Shown piece after piece: positions 7,500 to 61,570 of a DNA stretch of 64,000 nt. The first letter of the stretch is position 1. Each line of letters begins with the position of its first letter. Where the stretch lies: contig NC_019876.2 of NCBI RefSeq assembly GCF_002234675.1, forward strand, positions 22,495,161-22,559,160, given 5' to 3'. Position numbers and translations under genes: made by a program. The DNA comes from Oryzias latipes (Eukaryota > Chordata > Actinopteri > Beloniformes > Adrianichthyidae). The notes beneath the pieces are model-generated. The model saw nothing but the letters and a program-made list of their open reading frames with translations. It did not search any database and was not told where the DNA came from.

Positions 7500-7502
7500 T
7501 AC

Positions 7503-29987: not shown

Positions 29988-30110
29988 AACAGTCGCTTAG
30001 AGAAGAAAAAGAGAACTGGAAACAAAAGTAAACATTGGAATCATTTCATTTTGATTTGCTTGTACAGAATCCTTTATGAAACATGAAATCTGTGAACAGT
30101 TTAAACGATT

Positions 30111-31912: not shown

Positions 31913-32008
31913 GCTCAACTTCAAAGCACCAAAGCAGAGTTGGAACAGAAGATTGCAATGAGAAGAGCAAAGGTGGATGAAGTTGATGCAGCTCTCAAAG
32001 TTTGCATG
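31913..32008 (+). CDS. Gene C coiled-coil exon (96 nt)
   Basis: Acceptor TTCCACAG|GCTCAA, donor GCATG|GTGAGC. Encodes AQLQSTKAELEQKIAMRRAK..., a helical segment. The upstream exon is unknown; an in-frame ATG within the exon (about residue 16) is a fallback start. Confidence 0.85.
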
Positions 32009-38076: not shown

Positions 38077-38767
38077 CTGGAAATGAATTATTCTACAATT
38101 TATGTGCAGTGGGTGTGAAAACGAAAATGCTATCCTGTCTTTGCATTATCACTTTAGTTACATCACAGAATGAGCGGTGTTAAAGTACAAAATGAAAAAG
38201 CATTTTGGAGGATTGATTTTTTATTTTATTTTTGAGTCAGTTAAAGCAGTGACATTGTGAAAATAAATAAGCATTTCTGTTAATCCATTTTAATTGTAAA
38301 ATTAGATATTTCTAATTTTATTTAGCTACACTTTTGCTAAAAAATGTCAAATACCATTTTCTTTATAATTTTGTGACAGAATAAGCGCTGTTGAAGAAGA
38401 AAAAACGGTCAACGAACGCAGCTTTATTGTGAAACGGAAAAAGCATTTCTGGTTTTGACTTTTATTTTGAATGAGAAACATATGCTTGGGCGGGGTAGAC
38501 TTAACTTTAACTTAACTTTACTTATAGAATTGTAACGATTCAGAGGATAAAGATAAAACAAATGCCATTGTAGAACAGTGTTTAAAGTTGTAAATAATTG
38601 ATTTCCAGTAAAGTGATTCACTATTTTGTATTTTAAAAAGCCAAAGTTCCGATTAAATATCACAAACCAAACTTTCGGTAGTTTTGATTGACAGGTTCTG
38701 AGTCACGTGAAAGATGAGTAAGCAGCACGCGGGAGAAGGCGCGCGAATGTATTCTTTTGTCAGAAAC

Positions 38768-38777
38768 GAAAGTGAAA
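38768..38777 (+). promoter_or_regulatory. ISRE upstream of gene B
   Basis: GAAAGTGAAA is a perfect GAAANNGAAA core, within the longer GAAACGAAAGTGAAAG (38763-38778), which could bind IRF dimers. It lies 66 bp before the gene B ATG, the usual position in interferon-stimulated gene promoters. This suggests interferon induction. Confidence 0.6.
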
Positions 38778-38833
38778 GCATCCTCGTTGTTTCAGGGCTG
38801 AAGAAGATCCGTTTGAATCGCGGCAGCTGCAGG

Positions 38834-38847
38834 ATGAGAGCGCGGAG
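38834..38847 (+). CDS. Gene B exon 1 (start codon)
   Basis: ATG AGA GCG CGG AG, then donor GAG|GTGAGA. The exon leaves in phase 2, exactly what the next exon (44149, one leading base) needs. A perfect ISRE lies just upstream. The distance of 5.3 kb makes the join a prediction, but phase, donor quality and promoter context agree. Confidence 0.5.
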
Positions 38848-41800: not shown

Positions 41801-44800
41801 TTTCAATCTAGATAGATCAATTGCAGACATGTTGTATATAATATCATTTTTACAATATGCTTAAAAATGCATCCTAACAATCTGACACGTATGAGACAAG
41901 AAAACTGTTTGGCTTCTACAACAAACATGTTTGGAGTTGAGAGGAGCTGATGAGAGTCTGACGGTTAGCATTTCAATTTGACACGCATAAAGGCCTGTTC
42001 ACACCGGGACGAATTTCGCCGACGTTTAACGCCTTGTGACTAAACAAAGGGCACTAATGAGAGTGTGCACACCGATGCGAAAAAATGCCACGCGTCAAAG
42101 CGTCAAAAAAAAAAAACGCCTCTGGTTCGTTTTTTTTTTTCGACGCGTCGCGTCGAAATCTACTCGACCAATGAGAATGGCGCTTTTGCACACGTGTCTG
42201 GAGCTTCTGAAGTTACAGTAAAACACAACTTGGGGGCGCTCAAACACAAAACTGCCTTGCTGAGCACACATACCAGCGAAGAAGATAGACGCCAAATAGC
42301 GTCTACACTGCCGCGAAGAAATAATGACGGACATTCTAAAATATCCCCGAACCAAGCACCAGTTGGAGCTACTGGTGCTTGAAATATTCACGTTTTCTTT
42401 GTATTATTCTGACAAGCGCGTAAATACTTGCTCTCTTCTTCTGAGTGAAAAGCGACTTTAAGAAGCGTAAAGTTGCGCAGCGCCACCTTGTGTACAGGAG
42501 CATTTCTGTTTACATTAAGCGCCATCTAATGTCAGGGAATGAAATTGCATGGTCGCTCGGCTCATCGTCAGTGAAAATCGCCTGGGTGTGAACACAAAAA
42601 ACGTGGCGAAAAACGCTGGCGAATAACGCCTGGCGAATATTCGTCCCGGTGTGTACGGGCCTTGAAGCTGCTATGCCAAAGAAAATGCATTACACCAAGG
42701 GGGCGCTGTTTTGCAACTTCATTTGAAATTTGACACAAAAGCAGCATGGTGTTTTTCAATGCAATAGATTTTAAGTCACTTTGAAATTAATATAAAGCAA
42801 ACCATGTATTGGAATGACAATTTTTAATATTAAATTTTAATATGTGAATTTTATTTGAATTGTGACGTAAAAAACCCATGACAATTTAAAATGCAATTGA
42901 ATTTGATTTTATTTAATATATTATATTTTATTTTTCATTGTCTGATTGAATTCTAAATCTTAATATTGAATTCTAAATTGCAAAATGTTTTTACATATTC
43001 CAAGCCTGAATTGTATATTGAATTGTCAATTACAAAATGCCTTTTTAAATTCTATGATTAAATTGCAAATTCCATTGTCAATTGAGAATTGTATATGACT
43101 TTGAATTATGACTCACGAAACTTTCATGTATTTCAGACTAAATATAGGTGTTCTGTTTGTTTTCACATCTCCATTGGAACAGTGGCATGGACCCCATGTT
43201 TTGCAACCTCTTTTTTGTGTCATTTTTCACTCAGCTGTCTGAATTCTAATAAAACCAGGTGATGTCTTAAACCATGTTCATACTTTGTACAAGGCTATTA
43301 CTTTAATAAATAAAGATGAATGACATAAGTGCATCTTGTTTGTGCAAACCTAAAATGGTTGATTGGTCTCTAAATGTCCTTTAGTGCTTTATCTCAGCAT
43401 CTTCACACACATGCATGTTCACAGGAAATGCTATTTTTAATTGTTTTCTTTTTCCTGAGTTCTGTTTCTGACCCTGTTTCATCCAAGCTTTTCCCACTGA
43501 GACTCTCACTGAGACTGCTTAAAAGACCCACACCATCAGCCCTCCACCACTGAGCCTGCCAGTGGATATTTTTTTAAACATTTAGTCACTTTTATGTAAA
43601 GGAAATAAAAAATGAAGTACATAAGTCAAAAGTAGGCATGAGGCCTCTCAAGTTTAACACTCAGAAAAGACCTGAAATTATTGTATTATCTGCTTGTTCA
43701 GTCGAGCTTTATGTTTCTTTAAAGCAGAAGAGGCTTTCAGCATAAACCTTTGCAGGACTCTGACCTTTAAGGAAACAGAAATACCACATTTCACTTTTTT
43801 CCTATTTCCTTTAAAAATGGAAATCCTGTTTCAGATGGTAAATATCTAGAAAGCCAGACATTCCTGATGAACCTTCTTTTTAGCGTGTTGGTATTTCATT
43901 TAAAGAAATCATGCTGCTGTATTATGCAAGTTTTGTTTTCGTCAAACAGCTACTCAAGGGAATATTTTTAATTGTTTTACTATGTAAAATATAAAACAGA
44001 TTTGAAAGCAGGTGATGATCAGGATGAGTCCAGCACATCAGCATGTGTGATTCATGTGTGCAATCTGCCCTGCAGACAGCAGAGTCTCGTGTGTTTGAGG
44101 AGGAAGAGGAGGAGAGGCTCCGTTTGATAGCTGTGCTCTGTTCTGTAGTAATAGGAGCCTCCAGGTGTGTCCCTGCTGCGGCTGGTCCAAAGTCACCTCC
44201 TATCGAGGCCTGAGGATCCACCAGGGCAAGATGGGATGCACTCAGAAAGGGATGAGGGTGATGGAACACCAGCAGCAGTACTTGTGTGAACAGAAGCAGC
44301 AATACTTGTGTGAACAGAAGATTCAGTGGAACCTAACGCTGAATGTTGACTGCGTTGTCAAAATTGGTTAGTCAAAATGTGTGAAGATTCTTCAACAAGA
44401 AAGAAAAATGAGAGCAGAAAACTGGTTTCAAAACATGTTTTATATTTTGAACAGAAAGCCTAGATGTTCCTGACCCGAGCCTCCAGGTCTGTCACTGTGG
44501 CTGGACCAAAAGAACCACCTATCAGGGGTTACTGATTCATCAGGGGAGGATGGAATGTACCTTGAAGGGAGCAATGATCCCAGAGAAAGAGAAATATGAC
44601 TCCAGACATAACACAGAAGAGAAGGAACATCAGTGGAAACCTCTTCCAGAGGTACCTAAGGAGATCTAAAGTGGAAGACCTCAGGTTCTTATATTAAACA
44701 TCAAAAAGAATAAAAATTCATTTTTCCTGGTTCACTTGACAGATGTTTCCAGAAGGACTGAGGGGAAGCTGCAGAAAGAGCTCTGCTGCAGCAAAGATGG

Positions 44801-47800
44801 AGTACTGTAGGTGTCATGTTAAATGTGAAACTACAAGTCTGTGCTGCAGCCCAAATGTGACTTTCTGCTCTTCTAACAGCTTCTCCAGAACCTCCACACT
44901 CGACTCAGAGAGGATACTCAGCCCGGTACCTGGAGGCCCCGCAGGCCCTCACCCAGGTCTGGAATAGCTCTTTTAATTTTTTAGAAATCATCAGAATTAT
45001 CATTTCTAGAGAGAAGATTTGAATATGTGAGAATATTTGAAAAGGTGATGAATTTAAGGCCAAATCCGAATTCTTCCCTTACAGCATCTCCTTCAATCAT
45101 ATCATCAATAGTTGCTGGTCAGCTATGTTAGTGCGTAGCTGCTAGCACTCAGAAATACATAACATCGGTTTTATAACTTTATAAAGGTCATGTCAAAACA
45201 GGAAAAGCGCTTCTTGTCCATGGCACAGGGCAACGCAGAACATACTAATAACGGAGGGCTCGGCTTTCCTCCGCTGGGAGGGTTAGCCCTTAACCCTTAT
45301 GCTATCCCAGGCACTTTAACATTGGGAGTTGGGTCATCTAGACCCACTAGACACTGCGCTGAACCTTTTTTCTTCAATGATTTGTGATCTTCACTGGTGT
45401 CCATGGATTACATGAAATTTTCCACCTTTATCCACCTTTGTCATGGTAGGGAGAACACGTCAATGTAAGGGTGGGGTCATCTAAGATAGCACAAGGGTAA
45501 AAAAACTCTACCCCTCTAAATGCCCTTACAATTGGAGGGGTAGCGAGAAGCCATAGGGGAAGAATTCGGATTCAGACTACTTGTCTGATTAGTATGTCTG
45601 TAGTGATGAGGACTTTGTTCCAGCCTGTTGTGCTGTATAGCAGTGGTCCTTAACCTCGGACCGCAGACCGATATTGGTTTGTGGATTACTTGGTACCAGT
45701 CTGTAGACCAAAAAAAAATACATTTGACAACTTAGATAATTTCTGTTTTGTTTATTTTGTGATTCAGAAGGAATTTCTATTGTGGAATACTACCAGATTT
45801 TATCTTTGACCTACTCTTGACGCAAGTCATTCATCTCAGTCACATGTCTTAAATCTATTCGCTACCCTCTTAAAGCGGCTGCACTGACCACTAAATTTAA
45901 ACCCCAAAGCTAACAAAGGTTATGATAATACAAACAAACAAATTTCCTTGGGAAAAAAAGAGCCATTGAGCAAATAATGGAAGAGTCTTCGACTTCACAG
46001 AAAAAGAAAATTGCTATTTATGGACCAAACCAGCAGTTTTCCTCAACACATCGATCGATATATGGCGGCAGGTGTTGTTTGCACGTACCAAGACCACTTT
46101 TTTGTATAATATGCCGAGACTAACTCTAGTGTTACAATCACTTTTGAAAACCGGAAGCTTAAATAATTGAAGGCCAACTACAGCCTCATACAGACTGGTC
46201 TGTGAAAATATTGTCTGACATTAAATGTTCGTGGCCTAAAAAAATTGGAGAGCACTGCTGTGGAGAGCTAAGTCTGAGAACAAAGCTCAGTATAGGGTTT
46301 TACTCATTAACCACTCCCAACCCCCACCTATGACCATGAGCTTCTTCTCCTCATGGAGAGGAACAAGATGAGGAGATAAGACATTTTTACCACCGTGAAG
46401 CACTACTGGCGTTTCCAAATGGGGGTACAGTAGACCCAGGAGAGAACACATCAGCTGGTCTGGCTACACACCAGTGTCCTCCTAGAATGGAAAGAGTGGT
46501 TGATGGATGTATAAATAAATGGATGATGGAGGAATCTTTGGACAAATGGATGGTTTAAAGCTGAATAGATTGATGGATGGCAGGATGGATTACTGATGCT
46601 TTACAGCTCTGTGTTCTGTCTGGTTTTGTTAGAAGGCAGTCAGTGAAGAAATGCAGATTCACCACAGAATAAAGAGGGAACCAGAATCACGTATGTTAAA
46701 AGTTCATTCGTTATAAGTGAATTTGCTGGAATCCGCTTATGAAGATCTCCTTCCATTGCAGATCCTGTCTGGAGAACTGCTGAACAAGCTCCTGAGCTAC
46801 AGCGTCAGGATTTCTGCTCTGACCTGCAGGTAGAACAGGTGAGGTAAAATGGATATTAACAGGAAACCACACCTGCAGTGAGGTGACAAACTTCTGCTCT
46901 GTCTCGTGGGTGCAGAAACTGTTCAGGGAGCCTCTGACTAATCCAGAATCTCAATATAAGGAGAGATACAGAAGTCCACAGGTTTTCCTTCAAACATTTC
47001 CTGTTCATTCATTATTTAAATCTTCTGATTATTTTTTTTTTTTGTATTTGAAATGTGTTAATTAGCTAAAGGTTGAACATTCCTGACCAAAGGCATTTGA
47101 CTCTTTTCAGATTTTGGATTTGATCTCTTTGATCTCAGATGTTTCCAGAAGAATCTGATGTTTGAAAACATTCACTTAAAAATGTTTGAAGTTGCAGTAT
47201 TAAAAGTTGTAACTTTTTTCAGGTGGACAGACCTGTCAAATCACCTCCACTTGTGGGCCAGTCCAAGAAGAGACATAGATCTGTGGTTCGACCCAAGAAA
47301 AAAAATCAATCTGTTTTCCACCCTAAGAACAGAAGTCAACCTGTGGTTCAGCAAAAGAACAAAGAGTCACCTGTGGCTTTGTCCAAGAACAAAATTTCAC
47401 CTGTGGTCTGGCCCAAGACCATAGATACGCCTTTGGTACGGCCCATGAATCCACATGTGGTGCAGCCAAAGATTATAGATCAACTTGTGGACCAGCCCGA
47501 GACCAAAGAACCACCTATAATCCAGTCCAAGAAAAAAAATCCACCTCAGGTCCTTCCCAAGAACAAACATCCACTTGTGGTTTTGCCCAAAAACACAGAT
47601 CCGCCTGTGGTCCTGCCTAAGAACAAAAATCCACCTATGGTCTGGCCTAAGACCACAGAAACACTATTGGTACGGCCCATGAATCCACATGTGGTGCAGC
47701 CCAAGATTAGAGATCAATTTATCGACCAGCCGGAGACCAAAGATCCACCTATAGTCCAGTCCAAGAACAGAGATCCACCTCAGGTCCTTCCCAGGAACAA

Positions 47801-50800
47801 ACATCCACCTGTGGTTTTGCCCAAAAACACAGATCCGCCTGTGGTCCTGCCTAAGAACAAAAATCCACGTATGGTCTGGCCTAAGACCACAGAAACACAA
47901 TTGGTACGGCCCATGAATCTACATGTGGTGCAGCCCAAGATTAAAGATCAATTTGTGGACCAGCCGGAGACCAAAGATCCACCTATAGTCCAGTCCAAGA
48001 ACAGAGATCCACCTCAGGTCCTTCCCAGGAACAAACATCCACCTGTGGTTGTGCCCAAAAACACAAATCCATCTGTGGTACTGACCAAGAACACAGATCT
48101 GCCTGTGGTCCTGCCCAAGCACAAATATCCACCTGAGGTCTGGCCCAAGACCATAGATTCACCTTTGGCACACCCCATGAATCTACATGTGGTGCAGCCC
48201 AAGATTAGAGATCAATTTGTGGACCAGCCGGAGACCAAAGATCCACCTATAGTCCAGTCCAAGAACAGAGATCCACCCCAGGTCCTTCCCATGAACAAAC
48301 ATCCACCTGTGGTTGTGCCCAAAAACACAAATCCATCTGTGGTCCAGACCAAGAACACACTTCCACTTGTGGCCCTGCCCAAGCACAAATATCCACCTAT
48401 GGCCTGGCCCAAGACCATGGATACACATTTGGCACACCCCATGAATCTACATGTGGTGCAGCCCAAGATTAGAGATCAACTTGTGGACCAGCCCGAGACC
48501 AAAGATCCACCTATAGTCCAGTCCAAGAAAAAAAATCCACCTCAGGTCCTTCCCAAGAACAAACATCCACCTGTGGTTGTGCCCCAAAACACAAATCCAC
48601 CTCTGGTCCTGACCAAGAACACACTTCCACTTGTGGCCCTGCCCAATAACACAGATGTATCTTTGTCCAAAATCAAAGATACATCTGTGCTCCTGCCCAA
48701 GACCACAGATCCACCTATAGTCTTATCCAAGAACCCAGATCCACCTGTGGCTTTCTCCAAGAACAGAGATCCATCTGTACAGGGAGAGAAACATCCACAT
48801 CCAGTACTGGTGGAACTCCAGAATGCTTTACAGAGAAAACAGTCCCTCAGTGAAGAAAGAGAGAAAGAACTGGAAACAAAAGTAAATATTGGAATCATTT
48901 CATTTTGATTTGCTTGTACAGAATCCTTTATGAAACATAAAATTTGTGAACAGTTTAAACGGATTTTGATCTGAGACATTATAGTCAGAATCTTTGCTGT
49001 CGCATGTGACACAGGCCAAAAGTTGCCCTGACTACAAAGCAGAATCTTTCCATGAAGTAAATGTCTTTCTCTCATTCAGGATATATCAGCTGTGGCTCTA
49101 AGCCCATCTGGAACAAAGGTTGCTGTGGGAAACAAGTCAGGTATTATAAGGAAGACATTTCATTTAGTTACATCCTTAAGTGTCAGGGATGTGAAACAGC
49201 AGAGCATGTGGATTTGTCTCTGCCTCTTTTTGCAGCATCAGGACTTTCTGAGAGGAAACAGCCAAACCTGAAGAAGCTCTCTTCTGGGCAGGTAAACATC
49301 TCTTCCAGACCTGTGGATCTTTGTGTCTCTGTTCTTTTGCCGATGTAACTATACGTTTTTAACTTTTCAGGAGAATATATCGCCCCATCCTGTAATCCAG
49401 ACAGAAATGGAATCATCTTTATTCTCAACAAAGCTGAAAGACTTTGAGAGGATCCCGGTTGGAGCAGGTGCTCAGCCAACCATCAAAGTCAAGGAGAAGG
49501 AGGTGCAGGATCTGATTGAGTCTGGGGGATACTCAAACTTTTGTTTGTGTTTTTTTAATTCTTGGGTTTCTGATTGGACATTTCTAACATGTTTTAATTT
49601 AAAAACATTTGTTTACAGATAAACCACCACCACCATGTTAAAGTGGCAGTTCATTTAGGGATATTTCTAATCTAAATTTCAGTGTCATTATAAAGTCACC
49701 TGACAGACAAAAAAAGAACAAGATAAAACTGTCAATAAAAATACTGTAAAGATAAGGAAAAACTGACCCCCCACCTAAAGGAAAGTCCTGCAGTTCATGG
49801 TTTGAACCAAGCCAAATGTTTGGGATTTTTTTCTGTTGGACTTTACGTCAATTATTTATCTACAATGGGATCACATTAATGCTGGGAAAGTACTTGTTTA
49901 ACATAAATAAAATGATAAATTAAATCGAATCATAAGCTTTACTCCCTCCCATCGATGCTCATGGAGTAGAATCAGTCATCCTGTCATCACTTTTGTCATC
50001 TTGTTAAAGCTTTATCCATCCTTTCAGGTGAGCCCAACAAAACCTCTGGTCCCCCTGAAGCTGAAAGTTCATAGTTGTTTGGTCGCAGTTCAAGCAGTGG
50101 AAGAGACAGGAGTCCTGTTCCATGAGGAGGAAACAGAGAATCAGGTGCAGCATTCTTCTGTTAAATGAATGTCACTCAGTCATCTCTCTTGAGGTCTATT
50201 TTTTTGCATCTACTTAGGTTTTCTGATAATTGTCTATTCTATTTTAGTTTACTATCATATGGGTGTCATCTTTATCAGGTTAACAAATCCATCAGGGAGC
50301 ATACAAACCTTTCTGCAGTTTCACTTAAGAACTCACCTGCAGTATCAGAGAAATCCCATACTCATTTACACAAATCAAAGATAATTACCAAAATTATTAA
50401 AAAAAGTTATCATTGATGAAGACAGATCTGTGAAGCCAGCAGAAATGTTTTCATGCAGTTGTATTGCTTCTCTGATAAATGTTAGACATCTCTTATCATT
50501 TGAAGTGGAAGATTTTGGAGAACTGGTGACTTGTCTTTTTTGTTTTGTTTAAATTTTGAGGACCAAACGCCTGTCTAACAAATCTTTACTTTCACCAACT
50601 GTGAAACCTGAGGAGCTGAACTGACGTCTGGTTGTTTTGTCAGAGTGTCACTGGCGTCAGACGTGCTACCACACCCTCCTCATCCTTAGCACAGGATCCA
50701 GCATCACGTACGTAGCAGCATGTTTCAATTCTTTCCGAATGAGGACAAAAATGACAGCCTTGTCCTTTTCTTCATAGTTTCTGAAGCTGCACCGGGGGAT

Positions 50801-53800
50801 TTCTCTGCTGGCATGAAGGTAAAACTGATTTCAGAAGAACAGAAGTTCATGCTGGCAGGAGCTGCTTAACCCTTGTGCTATCTTAGATGACCCCACCCTC
50901 ACATTGAAGTGTTCTCCCTACCATGACAAAGGTGGATAAAGGTGGAAAGATTTCATGTAATCCATGGACACCAGTGAGGTTCACAAATCATTGAAGAAAA
51001 GAGGTTCAGAGCACTGTCTAGTGGGTCTAGATGACCCAAATCCCAATGGTAAAGTGCCTAGGATAGCACAAGAGTTACGGCTGTCACTGTGTTTGTGGAC
51101 ACTGCTGAGCTCCTCACACATACAGGACATCCAACTTTAACATTACCCTTTTCATTACTGTAATCATAAACTTCTCTACACATTTCTCCAACATAAACTT
51201 ACATTTATCCTCCACAAAACACAGAGAAAGAACTTAGCTTATTGTAATATTTTGTAGACGTTCTCCAGTGATACTTTGGTCTAATTCCCAAAGTTCCAAA
51301 GATGTGATAAAAAGCTGTACTTTTTCACAAGAACTGAAGAACTGCATTATTGAGTTCAGACATTAATTTAAAGGAAAACTAATACTGGATAAAATATTCA
51401 AAAGGCAGTTAGAAGAAGTAAAAGCCTTATAAATTGTCCTGCCATGCCCTAGACCAAACTCATTACCACTATCAGTGCACCCACCATCTGTTATAGTCCT
51501 GTTCCTCTTTAATTGATTACATATTCAGGATGAGGTGCTTCTGTTTGTTTTCTTTATTTAAAGAAAAAAAATGTCTTCTTCAGCATCTCAGACCTTTATA
51601 TTTTCAAGGATATTTGCAGTTGTTTTACTTATAGGATCTATTTTCTTCTATTTTCATAGAAGCTAACAAGTAACAGGATCATCCTATCATACGGCCCAGA
51701 TTGTTGTGTTAAAGGAGAAATGGTTTATCTTTAACTACCTTGAATTTTGAAGCTGAAGTGGTTTGATGCGCATTTGCATCAATAGTCGTCAAGTGGTTAA
51801 ATCCCCACTGTTGGTGCTTTACCCTCGACTTCCTGTTTTTATGGTTGAAAACGTTAATCAATCACCAGCGTTTCACGATCTCTTATTTTCAGTACGTCAA
51901 AAAACAACAAGTAGTGATCACCCAAAGCATCAATATGTGACATGGAGGGAGATCCCTGTCCACGCGTCAATATTTCACAAATTGGGTGAGAACGTGTCGG
52001 CTCCTTATGCTGGTTTAACTGCATCTTGGCCTCTTTCAGGTGAAGGATCTGGCGCAGATGTTTTCAGGAATGTCAGCCAAAATTGGATCAAACAAGAAGA
52101 GGGAACCCAAAGAAGTACACCAGCTCTCACAGGTAGCAGATCCTCTAAAATCCAGATGTAATCCTAATTTAAGACCAGATTAAACAGCCTTGTTATAAAC
52201 TCAGAAGAAGAAATTCACTTTCCTTCTTTTATTTTCTGCTTTTGGGTTTATAAGTGGAACCTCTTTACCTCAATGAGTCCAGCTGTTCTCACAGTTATCA
52301 ATAGCAGTTTTAACTCACGTGTCATCCCATCATGTTTTTAGAAGTGCTGTTGTTCTCCTTTAGTTAAAAAGCCTACTTTGGATTTATCACCAGTTAGAAA
52401 TTTGACATTTCTTTTTGTTTCAGAAGTTCTTAAAAAGGTATTTTATAGTCAACTGATGGTCTTTTTAGAAGAGTACACTATCCTTGAGGTTTTTCTGTCT
52501 GGGTTTAAAGATTTTCACAGTCCAGAATCAGATGTGGTAATAGTTATTAATTTTTAATTAATTTTTAGCTATAGATTCAGGGCATATTCATATCCCATGA
52601 TAAGACACATATACCGAAATTGTTCCAGAAGACATATTCTATTTATTCAAGAGTATGACTTGGAAAAACTCTGCCTGAATATTAATACGCCTTTCAATGT
52701 AATAAAATGGTCAAATTTATTGTATGTAATGATCATAATGTTAAGCACTGCAACTGTATCTCATATACAAGTTGCTTTTACCTATGTAAGCAAATTCATA
52801 GTGCTTTTATTTTGGAAACGTAATATATATTTGTTCTTAAACGGAACAGTCAACATTGTCTGATTTTTACAACAAATATTTTTCAGTATAAGCTGCAGCT
52901 CCGCTTTCTCACACATGGAAGTAAACACATATTTTACCGCTCATCACTGCAATGGTTGTTAGGTTTGGAGTTGCTGGACCCAAAAAGGCAGACGAGGACT
53001 TGGTTTGATTTAGTGAGTTTTATTGTAGGATGAAACAGATGATGTTGGGCGTTGGATTTTTGGTGTTGGTCTTGGTTCTTTTGGGTTTTTGTTCTTTGGA
53101 GGAGGATTCAGAGTTTCTTGCGAAATTTTGATCTGGAGGCTTGGGTTCTTGTGGCTTCGGTTCTGGTGGCTTTGGAGTGGACGTTGGCTTTGGCGTTGGC
53201 TTGGGCGTCGGCTTGGCTTGGTGTGGACTGTGGGCGTTAGCTTTGGCTTGACTTGGCTTGGCTTTGGATTTGGCTTGGGTTTCGGCGTAGGTTTGAGCGT
53301 AGACTTCGGCTTTGGCCTTGGTGAGGGCTTTGGCGTAGGCTTTAGTTTGGCTTTGGCTTGGATCGGCGAGTCCTTCATTAGGGCAGACGAACCGACAATG
53401 GCTGGAGGGCCAGATGGACTAAATAGGGTCCCTGATTGGATGTTGAGCAGGTGTGCGAGACCGGATCATCACGCAGGTGTGCGGGGACGACCCCGACGCC
53501 TGACAGTACCCCCTCCACAAGGGACGCCACCTGGCGGCCGAAAACGGTCAGGGTGCAGAAGACGGAAATCACGCACAAGACCATCATCCAAAATTAAGGA
53601 GCGAGGCACCCAACACCGCTCCTCCGGGCCATAGCCCTCCCAATCAACAAGATACTGAAACCCACGACCCCGACGGCGCACATCCAGGATGCGACGAACC
53701 GAAAAAGCAGGATGGCCATCCATGAGCCGGGCGGGCGGAGGGGGCACGGACGGAGGGCACAGCGGACTGGTCACCACTGGCTTGAGGCGGGACACGTGGA

Positions 53801-56800
53801 ACACTGGGTGGACTCTCATGGAGCGGGGAAGACGGAGCTTGACAGACGCCGGATTGATGATGGAGTCAATCTCAAAAGGGCCAACATAACGGGGAGACAA
53901 CTTCCTGGACTCTGTGAGCAATGGCAGATCCCTGGTTGACAGCCATACCTGTTGCCCAGGTGTATAAGCAGGGGCAGCAGTGCGACGCCTGTCCGCAACC
54001 GTCTTAGTGCGGTGAGAAGTGCGGAGGAGAGACTATTTGGTTGCTGTCCAGATCTTACGACAACGACGGATATGGGCTGTCACCGATGGCACTGCCAAAT
54101 CCAACTCCTCAGAAGGAAAAAGAGGAGGCTGGTATCCCAGTGATGCTTCAAAAGGAGAAAGGCCAGTGGGAGAAGAAACCAGAGAATTATGAGAGTATTC
54201 CACCCAGGCCAGGTAATCAGACCAAGACGAGGGGTTCTGGGAGCAGACACAGCGGAGAGCGGACTCCAAGTCCTGGTTGGTGCGCTCTGTCTGACCATTG
54301 GTTTGAGGATGGAAGCCAGAGGACAGACTGGCCGTGGCTCCCAGAGCTTGGCAAAAACATTTCCAGACCTGGGATGTGAACTGGGGCCCCCGATCCGAGA
54401 CTATGTCCGAAGGAATACCATGAAGGCGGAACACATGGATGGAGAGAGCACTGGCAGTGTCAGCGGCGGTGGGAAGCTTGGGCATAGCCACGAAGTGAGC
54501 AGCCTTGGAAAAACGGTCGACTATGGTGAGTATGACTGTGTTCCCCTTAGAAGCGGGGAGACCGGTGACAAAGTCGACAGCGATGTGAGACCACGGCCGG
54601 GAGGGGATAGGTAGAGGCTGGAGGAGCCCGGCGGGTGCTTGATGGGTGGACTTGCTGGTAGCACACACAGTGCACGCCGCCACGAACGACCTGGTGTCCC
54701 TGACTATAGTTGGCCACCAGAAACGCCGTTGAATCAAAGACAGAGTACGACGGAGACCCGGGTGGCAAGAAAAACGAGAAGCATGGATCCAAGACAGCAC
54801 TTGAGACCGAACAGCTGCAGGAACAAATTGGCGGTTGGTCGGTCCCCCTCCTGGGTCGGGGTCGGTGGTCAGAGCATCATTAATGGCCGTCTCTATCTCC
54901 CAAGTTAGGCTGGCCACCACACACGAAGAAGGGAGAATTGGATTTGCCGAGAGGTCAGGGTCATTAGGGCGGTGTAAACGCGAAAGTGCGTCGGGCTTGA
55001 GGTTGCGAGATCCAGGACGGAAGGAAACTGTGAAATTGAAGAACAAGGCTCATCGAGCTTGGCGAGGGTTAAGTCTCTTGGCCGAGCTCAGATACTCCAA
55101 ATTTTTGTGGTCGGTCCAAACTAAGAAGGGATGTTCAGCCCCCTCCAACCAGTGGCGCCACTCTTCGAGGGCCAGTTTAATGGCCAATAATTCCCGATTT
55201 CCCACGTCGTAGTTTCGTTCGGAGGCTGAAAGCTTACGGGAGAAGAAAGCACATGGATGGAGTTTGCCGTCCTCCGCGCGTTGGGAGAGAACGGCTCCCA
55301 CCCCGGTATCTGAGGCGTCAACTTCCACAACGAACTGACGGGTGGGGTCGGCTTGGGCCAAAACTGGGGCTGAGGTAAAAAGCTCCTTGAGATGTTTGAA
55401 GGCCTCCTCCGCCCCCTGGTGCCACAGAAAAGGCCTTTTGGTGGATGTTAGGTTGGTCAGGTGATTTACTAAACTGCTATAGTTGCGTATGAAACGGCGA
55501 TAAAAGTTTGCAAAACCTAGGAAGCGCTGTAGGTCTTTTCGTGTAGTTGGTTTGGGCCAGTCCTTGATTGCGGAGACTTTAGTTGGGTCCATATTCATTT
55601 TCCCCCTTTCGATAATGAAACCCAGGAAAGAGACTCTGGGAACATGAAAGTCACATTTCTCCGCCTTGACAAAAAGTTTGTTTTCGAGTAATCTCTGCAG
55701 GACCAAGCGGACATGTTGACAGTGGGTCTCGAGTGAGGGTGAATAGATGAGTATGTCATCAAGATAGACAAAAACAAAGCGGTTCAGGAAATCACGTAGG
55801 ACATCGTTAACAAGAGCCTGGAACACAGCAGGGGCGTTGGTTAAACCAAAGGGCATAACTAGATATTCAAAATGGCCCAATGGGGTGTTGAAAGCTGTTT
55901 TCCATTCATCCCCTTCCCGAATTCGCACCAGGTGATAGGCGTTTCGTAAGTCTAACTTACTGAATACTGAAGCACCCTGGAGGTATTCGAAAGCAGAGTT
56001 CAACAAGGGCAGGGGGTATTTATTTTTGACAGTGATTTTATTTAACTGGCTGTAGTCAATACAGGGACGAAGTGTTTTGTCCTTTTTCTCGACAAAGAAA
56101 AAACCCGCTGCCAGGGGGGAGGAAGATGGTCGGATGATCCCAGCCGCCAGCGATTCCTTGATATAAAGTTCCATGGCTTGGAGCTCTGGTTTCGAAAGGC
56201 GGTAGAGGCGAGAAGTGGGCAAGGTGGCCCCCGGGATCAACTCTATGGGACAGTCATATGGTCTGTGAGGAGGAAGAGTAGATGCTTTTATTTTACTAAA
56301 GACAGCCGCCAGGTCAATGTAGATGGGAGGGACGCCGGACAGATCTGGGACCTCTGGAGGAGGTGTGGTCATGGGTAAATCTGGATATGCAGAGCGAAGA
56401 CAGGTGGAATGACAATATGGACTCCAGCTCATAATGCTGTTAGACTGCCAGTCGATATGGGGATTGTGTTGACACAGCCAGGGGCGACCCAAGATTATTT
56501 GTCTGGAAGGCGCCTGGAAAACATAAAACTGCAGGGTTTCCACATGGTTGCCCGAAACACAAAGGAGAACTGGAGCAGTTTGGTTATTAATAACTGTGAG
56601 GGGTTGCCCATCTGCCGCACTTACTCTTAGAGGAGGGTCTAACGGAACGAGTGATAAACCAGCCTCGAGAGCCAGGTCCTCATTGAGGAAGTTTCCTTCC
56701 GCACCAGAGTCAATCAGGGCCGAAACAGAACCAGACCACGAACCAGAGGAAAGAGAAACCAGGAATTCTGAACTTGATGGGGTGAGGCTTTGAGAGTCTT

Positions 56801-59800
56801 TGCCCCTCAGTGACCCCATTATCACTGAGGGGCTCTGTCTTTTGGTTTTACAGGACAGACCGCCACCCTGTGTGTATTACTGCCACAATAGAAGCATTCA
56901 CCTCTTGTCCATCGATCCTGTCTTTCCTTTGGAGTCAAACGAGTCCTCCCCAACTGCATCGGTTCCTCTGTTGATGACGTGGGAGCTGAGGATTCAAAAA
57001 AACTGGGAGGGGGCGTTACCTGCCGTGACGTAGGTTTCGGAAAGGTCTGCTGGGATTTGTAGTTCCGGGATGAGCGGCGCTCTCGAAGGCGGTTGTCAAT
57101 TCTAATGGAGAGAGAAATAAGAGATTCCAGGGAGTCAGGTTTGTCGTAATGCAAAAGCTCGTCCTTTATGGAATCGGATAAACCGTTGTAAAACACTTCT
57201 AGAAGCGCTCTAGTGTCCCAACCCACCTCCGTGGCCAGGATGCGGAAGTCAACTGAGTATTCGGCCACGGAGCGTTTGTCTTTGCGCAGGGTCAGCAGTT
57301 TGCGGGAGGCGTCGTGGTATCTTTCTGGTGTCTCGAATACTTGTTTAAAGTGGCCCATAAAATCTTGAAATGATAACGCCGTCATGTTGTGGTTCGCTAA
57401 GAACGCTTCGGCCCATTCAAGAGCTCGACCGCGTAACAGTCCGGTAACATAGGCTATCTTGGCTGCGTCGGAGGAATACATGCTGCCTTGTTGTGAGAAC
57501 ACCTGCGAAGACTGGAGGAGGAATCCCCTACAATGGTCGGATGTTCCCGAAAAAGGATCCGGATTGGGGATGCGAGCTTCCAGGACAGGTGAAGCATGAG
57601 GTGGCGGAGTCTGCGGCATAGGAGCCACGCCGGCGGAGTCAGGTGAGCGTGAATCGGCAATGGTTTGGAGCAATGAGTGGAGCTGGGACAACTGCTGTGA
57701 GATGGCTTGTTGATTTCCCGAAAGGCTGTGAAGCATTTGTTCATGTCTGTCCATGGTGGAGGCGTGGGAGGACAAAGTCTGGTTCACGGGGTCCGGGCCT
57801 GCTGGGTCCATGTTGGTCGGTTCGTTCTGTTAGGTTTGGAGTTGCTGGACCCAAAAAGGCAGACGAGGACTTGGTTTGATTTAGTGAGTTTTATTGTAGG
57901 ATGAAACAGATGATGTTGGGCGTTGGATTTTTGGTGTTGGTCTTGGTTCTTTTGGGTTTTTGTTCTTTGGAGGAGGATTCAGAGTTTCTTGCGAAATTTT
58001 GATCTGGAGGCTTGGGTTCTTGTGGCTTCGGTTCTGGTGGCTTTGGAGTGGACGTTGGCTTTGGCGTTGGCTTGGGCGTCGGCTTGGCTTGGTGTGGACT
58101 GTGGGCGTTAGCTTTGGCTTGACTTGGCTTGGCTTTGGATTTGGCTTGGGTTTCGGCGTAGGTTTGAGCGTAGACTTCGGCTTTGGCCTTGGCGAGGGCT
58201 TTGGCGTAGGCTTTAGTTTGGCTTTGGCTTGGATCGGCGAGTCCTTCATTAGGGCAGACGAACCGACAATGGCTGGAGGGCCAGATGGACTAAATAGGGT
58301 CCCTGATTGGATGTTGAGCAGGTGTGCGAGACCGGATCATCACGCAGGTGTGCGGGGACGACCCCGACGCCTGACAATGGTGGTCTTTTTTTAGAGCGTT
58401 GTACACATCACTCTGATCCATCAGGTCGCTGAACTAAAATCTATTGCTGGAAGGTTCTGCAGAACTGTGGCCCACTTTGCTGATAGCATTTTGGCTGGTG
58501 CTACGTGCATTAGCCGCTGTGCAGCTGCAGTGCTTCACTCGTTCTTATCTGAGTCCGCTAAAAAGCACTGCAATCTGTGCTTTTATATGATACTGGCAGC
58601 AACATGGCTCAGAGTTTCGGTTCGGTTTCCATCCTAAGTAAAAACTAAGTAGTTCATGTCTCATAACAACAAAACAAGCTGCGCCTTACTGAGATCTTGT
58701 TGTTGTTTGGTGCGGTGTAGAGCTGCTCAGAGAGGCTCCGTGTGCTCTGCTGCCAACTAGCTGTCGGAGATAAGATTGGAAAACAAGAGTCAGACGCTGA
58801 AGGACTCTCATAAATAATTAGATATCTTCCTGACCGCATTTTGAATCGATACAAGTATCGCCAAATGCATTTTTTTTACACCCCTACTATTAGACCTGTC
58901 GGCTCCATTTGCAATATGAGCGGTTGGAGAGCTTGGCCTGTAGGAAATTGGCCAGTGAGTGTAAGTGGCCTTTTTGCCCCGTGTCACTGGGAATCAGAGG
59001 TCCCTCACCGCCAAAACTTATTTTTAAATTGACTTAATAGTAAAGAGGACTTTGACCAATTTTTCTATCATATCTTATTTTAACACCAACACGTCTGTAG
59101 TTACTTTATGTAGTTTTAGCATACTATATGTATTTGTATATAACCCCTTGTGATGATACAGATATTAAGGTTTATGGAAATTGTTAAAGTGCTATATAGA
59201 TTAAATTGGATTGGACTGAATTATGTTTTGCTCTCCTTGATTTGGTTTGATCACTCTTGTTTTTTTTTTACAATGTATAAGTGTATTTCTCTCTATTTTT
59301 TTATTCATTGTTGAGTTTATTTTCATAAAGTCGTGTTTGGTAACTTTCCAGTTATCAGTGACTCTCCTTTCCCTTCAAAATGATGTTGATTTGTTTATGA
59401 AAAACTTGTTTATGACTTCCCAGTCTCATTCACCAAAAAACATCCCAGCACCTTCTGTTCTATGTATGTCTGACATTTTGTACCATGTTAGATGACTACT
59501 TTCATCTTTTCTTTGTCAGAGTGTCAAAGAAACCACAAGCACAGCGGAGTCCTCCCAGACTGAAGTCTCTCAGGAGGTTCCATTATTATGTATGTTTGAA
59601 AACTACTTTTCTTTTAATTCTGAAGAAATTGACAGTAATATGGTTGTCTTTTTTTCCATTTGAAGCTGAACCACCCACTCTCATTACTGACATGAAGGTA
59701 AAGCAGATACATAAAGACATTCTTAAAAATGAAAACTGAATTTTCCACAGACTGACTGAAACGGTAAACTTGTTTCAGGTGAAGGAGCGGCTTCAGATGT

Positions 59801-60972
59801 TTAAAAGTCTGGAAAGCAAAACTCCTAAAAAGAAGCAGCAACTCTTCCAGGTGATGGAGACTGAAAATGTTCCTGTTGTCTTTTGGATCTTTTAAAACAT
59901 TCTTGCTTTTATATAATTTGACATGATTATTTCCTGCCTCCTGTTGTTCAGGTAAAGACTCATGCTCGTGGAATTTCATTTGCCACTAAGGAGGAAACAA
60001 TGCTGGCGAAAAAGACAAACAGAGAGGAGCAAAAAGGAGTGAAGGTGGTCATAATCTGCTGTTCTACTTTCATCTCTTCATGCAGCTGCACAGACTTAAA
60101 GACAAGCAGCTATAAATACTGACCAATCGTTATATAACAGACAGGACAATACAAGTATGTAAAGTAAACACATTCAAGTTTGCATGAATCTATAAACTAA
60201 TAAAAAGTAAGTAAAAGCTGGGTTTCAAAGCCAGAGTTAAGAAGGTCATAAGGTGTGATGTCTGTACGCTGTGGAAGCCCCGCCCTCCTCTAGATGACTA
60301 GTTGACCTGGATGACCATATGGAACTCTTTCTTATTATTCACTAATAAATGTAAAAATGAATTATTGATTTAAAAACATGTATTTTTTAAAACATAAAGC
60401 AGGATTTCTGGAATTAGATGCTTTAGAAATAAGACTGAGTGACTAAAATGATCGATTAGTCACCCAATCTTATTTCTAAAGTATCTAAATCTGCTTTATT
60501 TTGAATTTTCTTTGGAAAACGCAGCAGGAAGAAATGCAGCTTTAAATTATGTTTTTTTCATTTTTTTTTTTTTTTAGATTTCCTTGTAAATACTTATTTT
60601 GCTGTGTTTGAAAAGGAACCAGCCTCAACATTAACTAACGTGGGAAACAGTAAAAGCGTCAGAAAATCACAAACCAAGCTGCCCAACTGTGTAAACTTGT
60701 GATTTGCTACAGGTTTTCTACAGCATTTATCCATGACCTATTTACTGTGATTTGAGGTCAAATGTTTTTATAATTTATAAGTAAATGAGTTACAGAGGTT
60801 CCGAAATTCCCTCCACTAACCTGAACCCTTTTTTTTTTTTTTTTTTTTCTTACTATGTCTTTATGTTTACTCATGTTTTACTCTGATAATTTCTTATTGA
60901 CGTTTTATTCTGTTTTTCTTATTTTAACCTTGTACAGCGACCTTGGGTGACCTGAAAGGCGCTTGAAATAAA

Positions 60973-61012
<40 letters not shown>

Positions 61013-61570
61013 TTGCCTTTGCAAAGGAGCGCAACAGGACAGAAATAGGAGCGATGTTTAAATGGATTGATCTTTGTGGGTGAATGGCCTCAAAAACACA
61101 CACACCTGTACACACACACTGCTCCTTTTTTAGGACAAAAAATAAGTGAGAAAGCTGCAGGTTTGCAAAATAAAAACAATTTAAGGAGATTAGAAAGTCT
61201 GGAGAACAACTGCTGCACATTTGTTTCAATAAAGTTTGGTTCTTTTGAAGCATAATCAAAACAAATGATGGATAAATGTAGACAAGTGCTAAAGGAATCA
61301 GTGTTTAAGGGGTTTCAGCTGTGCATGTCTGGTCTTCTTTCTTGACAGACGTTTGGAAATCTCGTCACTGCTGTCAGCAAACAGAATTTATCTGCAGTCA
61401 AACCCACAGCGGGGAGGAAAGCCACAACAAGCCTGAAGGTATGGAGTGGCTTCATGTTTGCATGCTCTCCACAGAGCTTCTGTCAGGGTTTGAACCTCCT
61501 ATGCTCTTAAATGTCTCAGGTGAAGGACCTCGTGCAGATGTTTTCTGCTTTATCAGTTCCACCAAAGTAG
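38834..61570 (+). CDS. Gene B: 22-exon zinc-finger/Pro-Lys repeat protein, unknown family
   Basis: Exons: 38834-38847, 44149-44366, 44455-44651, 44743-44806, 44880-44956, 46633-46690, 46762-46838, 46916-46981, 47223-48881, 49080-49140, 49236-49291, 49371-49502, 50028-50144, 50644-50707, 50778-50818, 52040-52132, 59520-59589, 59666-59697, 59779-59850, 59952-60044, 61349-61438 and 61520-61570. All junctions are GT/AG and every phase matches, giving 3402 nt, 1133 aa, no internal stop. N-terminus: two CGW finger modules. Middle: 553-aa Pro/Lys repeats. C-terminus: small Lys/Ser-rich exons, three of which begin VK(D/E)xxQMF. No signal peptide or membrane segment is seen, so cytosolic or nuclear. 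An ISRE suggests interferon control. A chromovirus sits in the 52133-59519 intron. The family is unrecognised and the exact ends are inferred. Confidence 0.72.
39405..39712 (-). repeat. Inverted third copy of the repeat at the duplication left edge
   Basis: The reverse complement matches 23580-23760 and 42680-42830 (AATGCATTTTCATT ... GCGCTGTTTTG ... AGCATGG). It continues beyond the nested MITE at 40850-40900. The left arm of the segmental duplication thus contains an interspersed repeat. Confidence 0.75.
39713..40848 (+). mobile_element. MITE with TGTGTCTGAA ends, split by a hAT element
   Basis: Ends TGTGTCTGAATTCC (39713) and the inverse GGAGTTCAGACACA (ending 40848). It interrupts the inverted repeat copy on either side and is itself interrupted by the element 40111-40822. 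Confidence 0.65.
40111..40822 (+). mobile_element. hAT element, TAGGGGTGTAA ends
   Basis: TAGGGGTGTAATAGTACA at the left and its near-inverse TGTACCGTTACACCCCCTA at the right. The flanks are ATGAGTAG and GTGAGTAG (7 of 8 alike), a typical hAT 8-bp duplication. There is no complete transposase frame. Confidence 0.8.
41121..41780 (+). mobile_element. hAT (Charlie-type) fragment
   Basis: Begins CAGTGGTCCCCAAACCCCGAGCC, the same kind of end as at 28426 and 45641, with related body sequence (GGGGAGGAAAAAGCC, GAAAACAGAAGCAG). The right end is not defined. Confidence 0.6.
41991..42662 (+). mobile_element. MITE with ~30-bp inverted repeats
   Basis: AGGCCTGTTCACACCGGGAC at the left and the near-inverse GTCCCGGTGTGTACGGGCCT at the right. 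Flanks TAA and TGA. Absent from copy A, where the repeat is continuous. The class is uncertain, possibly Harbinger-like given a 3-bp flank. Confidence 0.8.
43772..43781 (+). promoter_or_regulatory. ISRE-like core in copy B
   Basis: GAAACAGAAA, conserved with 26737-26746. A second near-match on the other strand (TTTCACTTTT) follows at once in copy B only. Confidence 0.3.
44149..44366 (+). CDS. Gene B exon 2: first CGW zinc-finger module
   Basis: Acceptor TTCTGTAG|TAAT, donor ATTG|GTTAGT. Same as gene A except AGG in place of its ATG and a 24-bp tandem duplication that repeats QQYLCEQK. The finger reads CPCCGWSK ... HQGKMGC. Confidence 0.78.
44455..44651 (+). CDS. Gene B exon 3: second CGW zinc-finger module
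   Basis: 197 nt, acceptor GAACAG, donor [25 protein letters not shown] ... HQGRMEC keeps the presumed metal ligands. Confidence 0.78.
44743..44956 (+). CDS. Gene B exons 4-5
   Basis: 44743-44806 ([21 protein letters not shown], donor TACT|GTAGGT) and 44880-44956 ([18 protein letters not shown]..., donor CCCAG|GTCTGG). The first leaves in phase 1 and the second in phase 0. This donor choice is the one that keeps the frame open into the next exon; the alternative TAG|GTGTCA does not. Confidence 0.65.
45293..45498 (+). mobile_element. Short MITE, ACCCTTATGCTATC ends
   Basis: Imperfect inverted repeats ACCCTTATGCTATC / GATAGCACAAGGGT, 206 bp. The same family lies in the opposite orientation at 50879-51075. 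Absent from copy A. Confidence 0.8.
45641..46257 (+). mobile_element. hAT (Charlie-type) element, copy B
   Basis: Orthologous by duplication to 28426-29028, with the same ends and flanks. Confidence 0.75.
46633..46981 (+). CDS. Gene B exons 6-8
   Basis: 46633-46690 ([19 protein letters not shown], leaves in phase 1), 46762-46838 ([18 protein letters not shown]...) and 46916-46981 ([20 protein letters not shown]). Polar linker sequence. The second exon contains an internal CAG|GTAGAACAG|GTGAGG, two possible donors 9 nt apart. Confidence 0.7.
47223..48881 (+). CDS. Gene B exon 9: nested Pro/Lys-rich repeat exon (553 codons)
   Basis: Acceptor TTTTTTCAG|GTGGAC, donor ACAAAA|GTAAAT, entirely open. 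The basic unit is about 10 aa, consensus VLPKNxxPPV. Units are grouped into larger repeats marked by [10 protein letters not shown] at DNA spacings of 234, 234, 264 and 264 nt (78, 78, 88 and 88 aa), the longer ones having one more decapeptide. A helical tail ([20 protein letters not shown]) follows. Such sequence should be extended and unstructured; PxxP-like motifs may bind partners. Period lengths are all multiples of three. Gene A keeps only a short version. Confidence 0.85.
49080..50144 (+). CDS. Gene B exons 10-13
   Basis: 49080-49140 ([20 protein letters not shown], donor TCAG|GTATTA), 49236-49291 ([18 protein letters not shown]), 49371-49502 ([19 protein letters not shown] ... KVKEKE) and 50028-50144 ([17 protein letters not shown] ...). 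Phases 0-1-0-0-0. Lys/Ser-rich linker sequence with no known domain. Confidence 0.65.
50644..52132 (+). CDS. Gene B exons 14-16: module 1 (SV.., [12 protein letters not shown]..)
   Basis: 50644-50707 ([21 protein letters not shown], leaves in phase 1), 50778-50818 ([14 protein letters not shown]) and 52040-52132 ([20 protein letters not shown]...). It is followed by a second set with the same phases and motif starts at 59520-59850. The MITE 50879-51075 lies between the second and third exon. Confidence 0.65.
50879..51075 (-). mobile_element. Short MITE, ACCCTTGTGCTATC ends
   Basis: Same family as 45293-45498 in opposite orientation, in a gene B intron. Confidence 0.8.
51080..52039. other. 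Intronic, no recognised element
   Basis: AT-rich. The frame 51763-52161 overlaps exon 16 in another frame and is not supported. Confidence 0.4.
52957..53505 (-). repeat. 3' LTR of chromovirus 2
   Basis: TGTTAGG ... CGCCTGACA as written on the plus strand. Includes the last 37 nt of the pol frame (stop at 53469-53471) and a copy of the Lys/Pro-rich LTR frame 53378-53010. Confidence 0.95.
53469..56870 (-). pseudogene. pol: Pol of chromovirus 2 with two premature stops
   Basis: In the minus-1 frame relative to gag, open from just after a TAA at about 56870. Protease ([13 protein letters not shown]), RT with [10 protein letters not shown], RNase H ([22 protein letters not shown]), integrase ([43 protein letters not shown]) and chromodomain ([21 protein letters not shown]). 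An in-frame TGA at 55052-55050 stands where the relatives have Trp (after RLNPRQAR), and a TAG at 54035-54033 lies before SLLRTS. Otherwise the frame is continuous to 53469, where it ends inside the 3' LTR. Each stop is one base from a sense codon. Confidence 0.92.
56822..57811 (-). CDS. gag: Gag polyprotein of chromovirus 2
   Basis: ATG at 57811, five bases after the primer-binding site, 329 aa, stop at 56822-56824, intact. Retrotransposon gag domain ([20 protein letters not shown] region) and a CCHC zinc knuckle [14 protein letters not shown] near the C-terminus. It overlaps the pol frame by about 45 nt. No X_XXY_YYZ heptamer is visible in the overlap, unlike chromovirus 1. Confidence 0.92.
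57816..57825 (-). promoter_or_regulatory. Self-priming primer-binding site of chromovirus 2
   Basis: ACGAACCGAC (minus strand), starting two bases after the 5' LTR, is the exact complement of GTCGGTTCGT at 58267-58258, the predicted RNA 5' end. A TATTTAG box (58296-58290) lies 29 bp before that. Confidence 0.72.
57828..58376 (-). repeat. 5' LTR of chromovirus 2
   Basis: Identical to 52957-53505 except at 58193. A 122-codon Lys/Pro-rich frame starts at ATG 58249, 18 nt after the predicted transcript start, and ends at 57881 before gag. Confidence 0.95.
58382..59519. other. Intronic DNA with hAT-like and L2-like remnants
   Basis: 58850-58888 (ATCGATACAAGTATCGCC ... TTACACCCCTA) looks like the end of a hAT element. 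59140-59215 (GTGCTATATAGATTAAATTGG) resembles an L2 LINE 3' tail. No exon recognised. Confidence 0.45.
59520..59850 (+). CDS. Gene B exons 17-19: module 2
   Basis: 59520-59589 ([20 protein letters not shown], leaves in phase 1), 59666-59697 ([11 protein letters not shown]) and 59779-59850 ([19 protein letters not shown]). Same order, phases and exon-start motifs as exons 14-16, so the three-exon block was probably duplicated. Confidence 0.65.
59952..60044 (+). CDS. Gene B exon 20
   Basis: Acceptor GTTCAG|GTAAAG, donor GTGAAG|GTGGTC, 31 codons ([20 protein letters not shown]...). Basic, phase 0 on both sides. Confidence 0.62.
60045..61348. other. Intron with L2-like tail and (ATT)n
   Basis: 60930-60975 (GTACAGCGACCTTGGGTGAC ... 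AAAGGCGCTTGAAATAAA) is a typical L2-like LINE 3' end followed by (TTA)n at 60977-61006. At 60370-60490 an inverted pair, ATTTCTGGAATTAGATGCTTTAG and CTAAAGTATCTAAATC-like, gives partial dyad symmetry. Confidence 0.5.
61349..61570 (+). CDS. Gene B exons 21-22 (stop TAG)
   Basis: 61349-61438 ([20 protein letters not shown]...) and 61520-61570 ([16 protein letters not shown], stop). The last exon starts with the same VK(D/E)xxQMF motif as exons 16 and 19. Confidence 0.68.

Follow-up and report, generated by a model that had tools for sequence, protein, structure and literature searches.

A stretch of 64,000 nt of medaka (Oryzias latipes) DNA (contig NC_019876.2, positions 22,495,161 to 22,559,160 of the forward strand; hereafter the window) carries on its plus strand, at 38834-61570, a gene of 22 exons that is real and already annotated and that, judged from its sequence, belongs to an undescribed fish family. 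The proteins of this family bear CGW modules, CCHC fingers of the form C-x(1-2)-CGW-x11-H-x5-C, and the pattern of their conservation indicates that the CGW finger is a conserved zinc-finger-like domain without a Pfam model. The 22-exon product is tentatively read here as a nuclear adaptor with zinc fingers that belongs to a TRIM cluster of fishes, is regulated by SUMO (small ubiquitin-like modifier) and is perhaps interferon-inducible, a reading that we hold at somewhat below even odds (probability about 0.45).

An earlier note on this DNA had proposed a chain of 22 exons and 1133 codons without phase conflict. This chain was reproduced independently from splice signals (GT/AG exons; phases in agreement; 3402 nt, corresponding to 1133 codons and the terminal stop), and it is matched by a database protein of 1151 aa, P0001, named 'titin-like isoform X2 [Oryzias latipes]'. 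The last 1111 residues of P0001 are, letter for letter, the 22-exon product minus exon 8, and its N-terminus adds 40 residues from an upstream ATG at 38714, with residues 1-44 matching 38714-38845 at 100%. When AG-started pieces matching exons 2-21 in length were chained at random 2000 times, the median was 20 and the maximum 232 open codons, against 1133 in the gene; this null is lenient, the best chain not having been sought, and for that reason the database match carries more weight. The comparison with random chains and the identity with P0001 together rule out a chance chain of open reading frames (ORFs). Donor strengths were in the 86th-100th percentile, except for that of exon 8 (56th), and acceptors in the 89th-100th. 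Exon 8, weak in its donor and missing in isoform X2, is optional. The first exon of 14 nt in the earlier chain begins at an ATG (38834) that is in frame, but it is only the remainder after the last in-frame ATG, since in the database model exon 1 reaches back to 38714 or further. As to the gene being undescribed, no description was found in the searched literature, but the gene was already annotated in the database, under a meaningless name. The name 'titin-like' probably reflects repetitive composition: P0001 showed no Pfam match at E 0.01, and titin was ruled out, no Ig, FnIII or other titin-type domain being found in P0001 by Pfam. The features of the gene are as follows.

38714-38847, plus strand: exon 1 in the P0001 version, from ATG 38714 (in the earlier version, from 38834, where the last in-frame ATG lies)
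38763-38777, plus strand: ISRE-like site GAAACGAAAGTGAAA (ISRE, interferon-stimulated response element), inside exon 1 of the database model
44149-44366, plus strand: exon 2, with finger 1 (CPCCGW..H..C)
44455-44651, plus strand: exon 3, with finger 2 (CHCGW..H..C)
44743-44806 and 44880-44956, plus strand: exons 4 and 5
46633-46690, plus strand: exon 6, with the SUMO-type site IKRE at 46669-46680
46762-46838, plus strand: exon 7
46916-46981, plus strand: exon 8, not in isoform X2, weak donor, with a counterpart in the O. melastigma and O. javanicus models
47223-48881, plus strand: exon 9, the body of 30-bp tandem repeats
49080-49140, 49236-49291 and 49371-49502, plus strand: exons 10, 11 and 12
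50028-50144, 50644-50707 and 50778-50818, plus strand: exons 13, 14 and 15
52040-52132, plus strand: exon 16, with tail motif 1, (K)VKDLAQMFS
59520-59589, 59666-59697, 59779-59850 and 59952-60044, plus strand: exons 17, 18, 19 (tail motif 2) and 20
61349-61438 and 61520-61570, plus strand: exons 21 and 22 (tail motif 3 and stop)

Protein searches returned 149 distinct proteins, isoforms and several proteins per species being counted apart and one search contributing the best 120 of 145 matches listed. The searches were bounded by length and shared words, and absences (from zebrafish, for example) are not to be inferred from this set. The CGW finger pattern was found in 145 proteins, the tail motif in 58, a B30.2-type motif in 80, tail and B30.2 together in 4, and RING in 10, with one to seven fingers per protein. 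These proteins fall mainly into two architectures, namely CGW-coiled coil-B30.2, and CGW-disordered body-'KVKDLAQMF' tail. Fingers and tail also stand together in one ORF of 586 aa (P0107) on a contig of 2398 bases, which is probably a cDNA, as the contig is too short for an intron-rich gene. Every named source looked at was a ray-finned fish, and most of these are spiny-rayed. Only one protein, P0053, comes from a moray eel, and its first 185 residues share 66% identity with a sea bream relative; since it may be contamination, it was not used to date the family. Names in the source entries were scattered over titin, mucin-17, dao-5, neurofilament, proteoglycan 4, TRIM21, TRIM39-like and pyrin. 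Two CGW models, P0084 and P0091, include an endonuclease-type domain (PF03372) and are probably fused to a long interspersed nuclear element (LINE). In five others (P0009, P0010, P0012, P0038 and P0061) a RING or B-box TRIM is joined to CGW fingers with an internal Met kept before finger 1, which suggests fused neighbours and an adjacent TRIM gene.

The two fingers of the 22-exon gene start at 44168 and 44490 (residues 12-35 and 90-112). With a looser pattern, 285 of 289 modules in the family had a spacing of C-x1-C (217) or C-x2-C (68) followed by x13-H-x5-C, and an unfiltered count of 'CGW' occurrences gave all four candidate ligands at standard spacings in 284 of 290. In whole-protein alignments of 38, 30 and 27 rows, the C, C, G, W, H, Q and C of finger 1 were kept in every row, save that the first cysteine was only nearly invariant in the last two. 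The finger logo, in which HQ is fixed, and a 19-row alignment were extracted with the finger pattern, and their fixed Cys, Gly, Trp and His are thus no proof. In the AlphaFold model of P0094 each finger is predicted as a hairpin and a helix (finger 1: strands 2-5 and 11-14, helix 16-26; finger 2: strands 106-109 and 115-118, helix 120-130), with pLDDT (predicted local distance difference test) values of 67-80 over the finger blocks. The model of the 22-exon protein has, in each finger, a helix with a second helix behind it (helix pLDDT 78-88) and strands of only single residues. Pfam gave weak matches only for 19 finger pieces (best E-values 0.011-0.062), and sequence searches of PDB with a single finger, with the tail and with a profile of the fingers returned nothing significant. 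The earlier note had singled out the CGW modules, and rightly so, as they represent a zinc-finger-like domain conserved in fishes.

In 129 of the 145 finger-bearing proteins the first cysteine of the fingers is preceded, at a distance of five residues, by a Met, usually as M-SLQV, and this Met is residue 1 in 96. At this position the 22-exon gene has AGG (44153-44155), against ATG in an upstream copy of the finger region, copy A (27176), and the Met is retained in P0004 (O. melastigma) and P0005 (O. javanicus). Judged from copy A, from the related proteins and from the database model, the ancestral start appears to have been lost in the 22-exon copy (ATG to AGG), with an in-frame ATG of the former 5' leader taking over.

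An ISRE core, GAAAGTGAAA, begins at 38768, and the ATG at 38834 follows 66 bp later. The longer form GAAANGAAAGTGAAA had one match in the window and none in 100 shuffles; the plain core GAAANNGAAA, with 16 copies in the window versus 6.1 expected, means little by itself. We take the GAAACGAAAGTGAAA site at 38763-38777 to resemble a PRDM1 site as well. The claim of an 'interferon-type promoter' could not be upheld in that form, as it rests on a single motif that the database model places inside translated exon 1. The element could still function if transcription starts downstream of 38763-38777, and its presence at exon 1 suggests control by interferon or interferon regulatory factors (IRFs). 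A palindromic E-box, TCACGTGA, was also seen by eye at 38703-38710, just 5' of the ATG at 38714.

The body encoded by exon 9 is a 30-bp tandem repeat (10-aa unit, about 52 copies, 47246-48778) with higher-order units of 234 and 264 bp, and is predicted to be disordered. At 47265-47303 a basic, nuclear-signal-like stretch, KKRHR-x4-PKKK, was noted by eye, and it fits nuclear entry. Upstream of the body lies the SUMO-type psi-K-x-E site IKRE, at residue 203; counting this protein, 24 of the 27 rows aligned show the consensus at that place. The tail carries three copies of a KVK[DE]LAxMF-type motif, at residues 967, 1032 and 1117 by a loose pattern, and 50 of the 58 tail proteins have two to four copies. 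A search with the tail motif gave 24 matches, 20 of them with a CGW finger and none from a known other family.

Copy A forms part of a second gene, sister gene A, which encodes two CGW fingers, a coiled coil and a B30.2 domain. Its features, in a splice model with exons 6-7 skipped, are given below.

27176-33987, plus strand: sister gene A
27176-27365, 27456-27652, 27742-27805, 27879-27955 and 31913-32008, plus strand: first five exons in the model of sister gene A
32212-32445, 33126-33273, 33349-33375 and 33455-33987, plus strand: remaining exons of sister gene A

In this model the finger exons splice in phase to the coiled-coil and B30.2 exons, giving 521 aa without an internal stop; the skipping of exons 6-7 belongs to the model (retaining exon 6 by itself would break the frame), and 16 alternative donors in the exon that follows would likewise preserve the upstream phase. 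Pfam matched the predicted protein to TRIM_CC (3.2e-27), SPRY (6.3e-24) and PRY (1e-14) and gave no match to RING or B-box. Its B30.2 domain has pyrin (E 6.8e-50) and then TRIM21 (E 1.1e-38) as the nearest solved structures. The repeat-type exon of copy A is frame-broken, with a stop at 29985; the idea of a truncated pseudogene was dropped, as skipping exons 6-7 joins the fingers in phase to coiled coil and B30.2. The earlier note had seen a 'TRIM-like neighbour' here. The TRIM link is real, both in the sister protein (TRIM_CC, PRY, SPRY) and in the family (RING in 10 of 149 models), but the neighbour is not a separate bystander and is best read, from the splice model, as the 3' half of sister gene A. 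A similar layout was found in the 3' half of O. melastigma P0012, which is 58% identical to the sister protein over 526 columns. The two genes lie side by side and share a tandem duplication: self-comparison of the window showed that 43.4-49.0 kb is copied at 26.4-30.1 kb, with 83-93% identity in the main blocks, and only four CGW fingers were found in the window, two per gene.

Of the 582 sites compared in exons 2-6, 22 are different between the medaka copies, with a nonsynonymous rate (dN) of 0.028, a synonymous rate (dS) of 0.084 and a ratio of 0.33, these being small numbers averaged over both copies. A one-sided binomial test on the 22 differences gave 0.008-0.024, which suggests, on such small numbers, that exons 2-6 are under constraint. 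Compared with P0004, which aligns along most of its length, identity is 72% for finger 1, 81% for finger 2, 50% for the linker and 62-88% for the tail motif regions, and only 210 of 554 repeat residues align. With P0005, finger 1 is 78% identical, whereas finger 2 aligns poorly (19 of its 36 residues, 21% identity). The description of the gene as 'fast-changing' fits the linkers and repeats and less so the fingers, which are better kept than the linker in P0004 and lie in exons with a dN/dS of 0.33.

In the preferred reading, the 22-exon product would be a nuclear adaptor. For its fingers, binding to a protein or to RNA would be likelier than the reading of a DNA sequence, because they lie 54 residues apart and not in a tandem array; on the same spacing, an array of DNA-reading fingers was disfavoured. 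The body carrying the SUMO-type site would serve as a flexible, modifiable scaffold, and the tail segments, partly predicted as helix, would dock a partner. The sister protein, with the same fingers plus coiled coil and B30.2, would be the most likely partner or target-recognition half, and the two would form a RING-less TRIM-like pair. A defence role for the 22-exon gene is something that we infer.

Several observations weigh against this adaptor reading. Within Oryzias the SUMO-type site may not be kept, as P0004 and P0005 are without the consensus (P0024 is the third row lacking it); its absence in these two relatives lowered our confidence in the adaptor and raised that in a decaying copy. 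The full phospho-dependent SUMO motif is psi-K-x-E-x-x-S-P. It occurred 36 times versus 0.23 expected from composition shuffles in 30 picked of 54 tail proteins, an excess that speaks for SUMO regulation but is inflated by relatedness and internal repeats, which the shuffles ignore, and the 22-exon protein is itself without the full motif (its IKREPESH is degenerate, with no P after S). The pLDDT, below 50 for 989 of the 1151 residues of the P0001 model, agrees with a disordered body, but a thin alignment may also have lowered it, and Foldseek and VIA-align with this 1151-aa model gave no PDB match. Four of the 24 tail matches show no finger: P0149 begins inside a finger, P0145 is a finger-less ORF on a short contig, and P0147 and P0148 are finger-less models; P0145, P0147 and P0149 had no Pfam match above the cut-off. 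We tabulated 31 contigs holding 61 of the 149 proteins, contigs of equal length being taken as the same contig, and 29 had two or more family members. Both kinds, a tail protein and a tail-less protein with a coiled-coil or B30.2 motif, occurred together on 18 of these 29, which favours a linked pair, but most shared contigs are chromosome-sized, so that the same contig mostly means the same chromosome and not adjacency; consecutive locus tags were seen in Gambusia only (CCH79_00019252 and CCH79_00019253). The ISRE, moreover, may lie downstream of the transcription start, and that the sister protein acts as a partner is something we only infer.

The strongest competitor, although still doubtful, is a chromatin or transcription cofactor without an immune role, for which the TRIM-type sister and the ISRE would be coincidental. 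CCHC fingers, SUMO-type sites and the basic nuclear-signal-like stretch would suit such a cofactor, as would the presence of a single strong ISRE only, but the number of fingers varies from one to seven, the repeats turn over, and TRIM-type domains occur within or alongside the relatives, features shared by many immune genes. It is distinctly unlikely that the 22-exon gene is a decaying duplicate that lost its start, is drifting and stays open only through youth, leaving the CGW-coiled coil-B30.2 sister as the functional member. The AGG at the family start position, a repeat body longer than in other Oryzias, the young long terminal repeat (LTR) element in intron 16, the isoform lacking exon 8 and the loss of the SUMO-type site among Oryzias relatives could all be explained in this way. 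However, 22 exons and 1133 codons are still open, P0004 aligns along most of its length with fingers and tail regions well kept, and the dN/dS between the copies is 0.33, though averaging both branches. A plain TRIM-family E3 ligase is scarcely credible: the sister gene has a TRIM-type coiled coil and B30.2 domain and several relatives are named TRIM21- or TRIM39-like, but for the 22-exon gene the sequence contradicts it, the Pfam scan of P0001 having given no RING, B-box, coiled-coil or SPRY match.

A further proposal concerns the origin of the finger: an R2/NeSL-like LINE may have supplied it from its own N-terminus, and the domesticated finger might now act against or with such elements; we regard this as unlikely. 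The Astyanax protein P0088, which we take to belong to an R2/NeSL-like LINE, has a reverse transcriptase (RVT_1, 1.6e-20) together with an N-terminal CGW finger (57 bits). According to PMC7650587, those R2 proteins that have three N-terminal fingers carry them in the order CCHH, CCHC, CCHH, so that a CCHC finger is among them, and PMC4640811 gives Utopia elements one to three N-terminal fingers, both of which favour such an origin. On the other hand, P0088 is the only reverse-transcriptase protein in the 149, it may owe its finger to a captured host exon or to fusion within the gene model, and a viral-contig scan with it, a weak test, found no relative. A single such protein is compatible with the LINE having given the finger or having taken it. 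A broader scheme, which we consider improbable, would make the N-terminal CCHC finger of an R2/NeSL-like LINE the substitute for RING and B-box within a TRIM cluster of fishes; the outcome would be a RING-less paired defence in which a coiled coil-B30.2 sensor and a SUMO-switched, repeat-tuned scaffold share the same transposon-derived finger.

Mobile elements are also present in the window. LINE remains were found at 18346-20849, where 20514-20786 matches residues 852-930 of P0088 (35%, E 4e-6), and LINE-like stretches, classed by eye, at 14651-17646 and 24516-26388, with reverse-transcriptase-type ORFs on the minus strand. A Gypsy-type LTR element at 2613-8041 has repeats 98.2% identical over 541 bp and ORFs of 344 and 1106 aa. 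A second one lies within the 22-exon gene:

52957-58376, minus strand: young Gypsy-type LTR retrotransposon in intron 16, not part of the 22-exon gene

Its LTRs (52957-53505 and 57828-58376) are 99.8% identical over 549 bp, and it is the younger of the two.

Full-text literature searches found no paper on the CGW finger, which is not proof of its absence from print; judged by title, what they matched were eDNA, diet, deep-sea omics or niche studies and papers on TRIM and pyrin. A survey of zebrafish and pufferfish TRIM genes (PMC3137616) and a review of interferon-stimulated genes of fish (PMC13030082) describe, in the parts available, expansions of finTRIM, btr and TRIM35; those passages mention no CGW-type finger, and the former records loss of the RING in some TRIM genes. 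Both kinds of CGW gene are present in many other fishes, and they may belong to fish antiviral gene clusters. The data point to a zinc-finger domain that is conserved yet has no Pfam model, seen in 145 database proteins under names such as titin, mucin-17 and TRIM21, and unite as one family two oddly named gene sets whose kinds often share a contig. Medaka would be a tractable model in which to test a RING-less TRIM-like pair in antiviral or anti-transposon defence.

Among known systems, the class-IV TRIM-like proteins (pyrin/TRIM20-, TRIM21- and TRIM39/btr-like) share TRIM_CC, PRY and SPRY with sister gene A, which differs from them in its two CGW fingers and in giving no RING or B-box match; the 22-exon gene has no match to RING, B-box, coiled coil or B30.2 (Pfam, P0001). 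The R2/NeSL/Utopia LINEs share the CGW finger through one Astyanax reverse-transcriptase protein, and unlike them the medaka 22-exon gene has no reverse transcriptase. The 'titin-like isoform X2' entry is the same gene, identical over the 1111 shared residues, from which the model of the earlier note departs in starting 40 residues later and in including exon 8. With the CCHC fingers of the FOG/ZNF type, the CGW fingers share the Cys-Cys-His-Cys ligand order and a predicted hairpin-helix, and they are set apart by a first cysteine pair that is usually separated by a single residue and by a fixed HQ.

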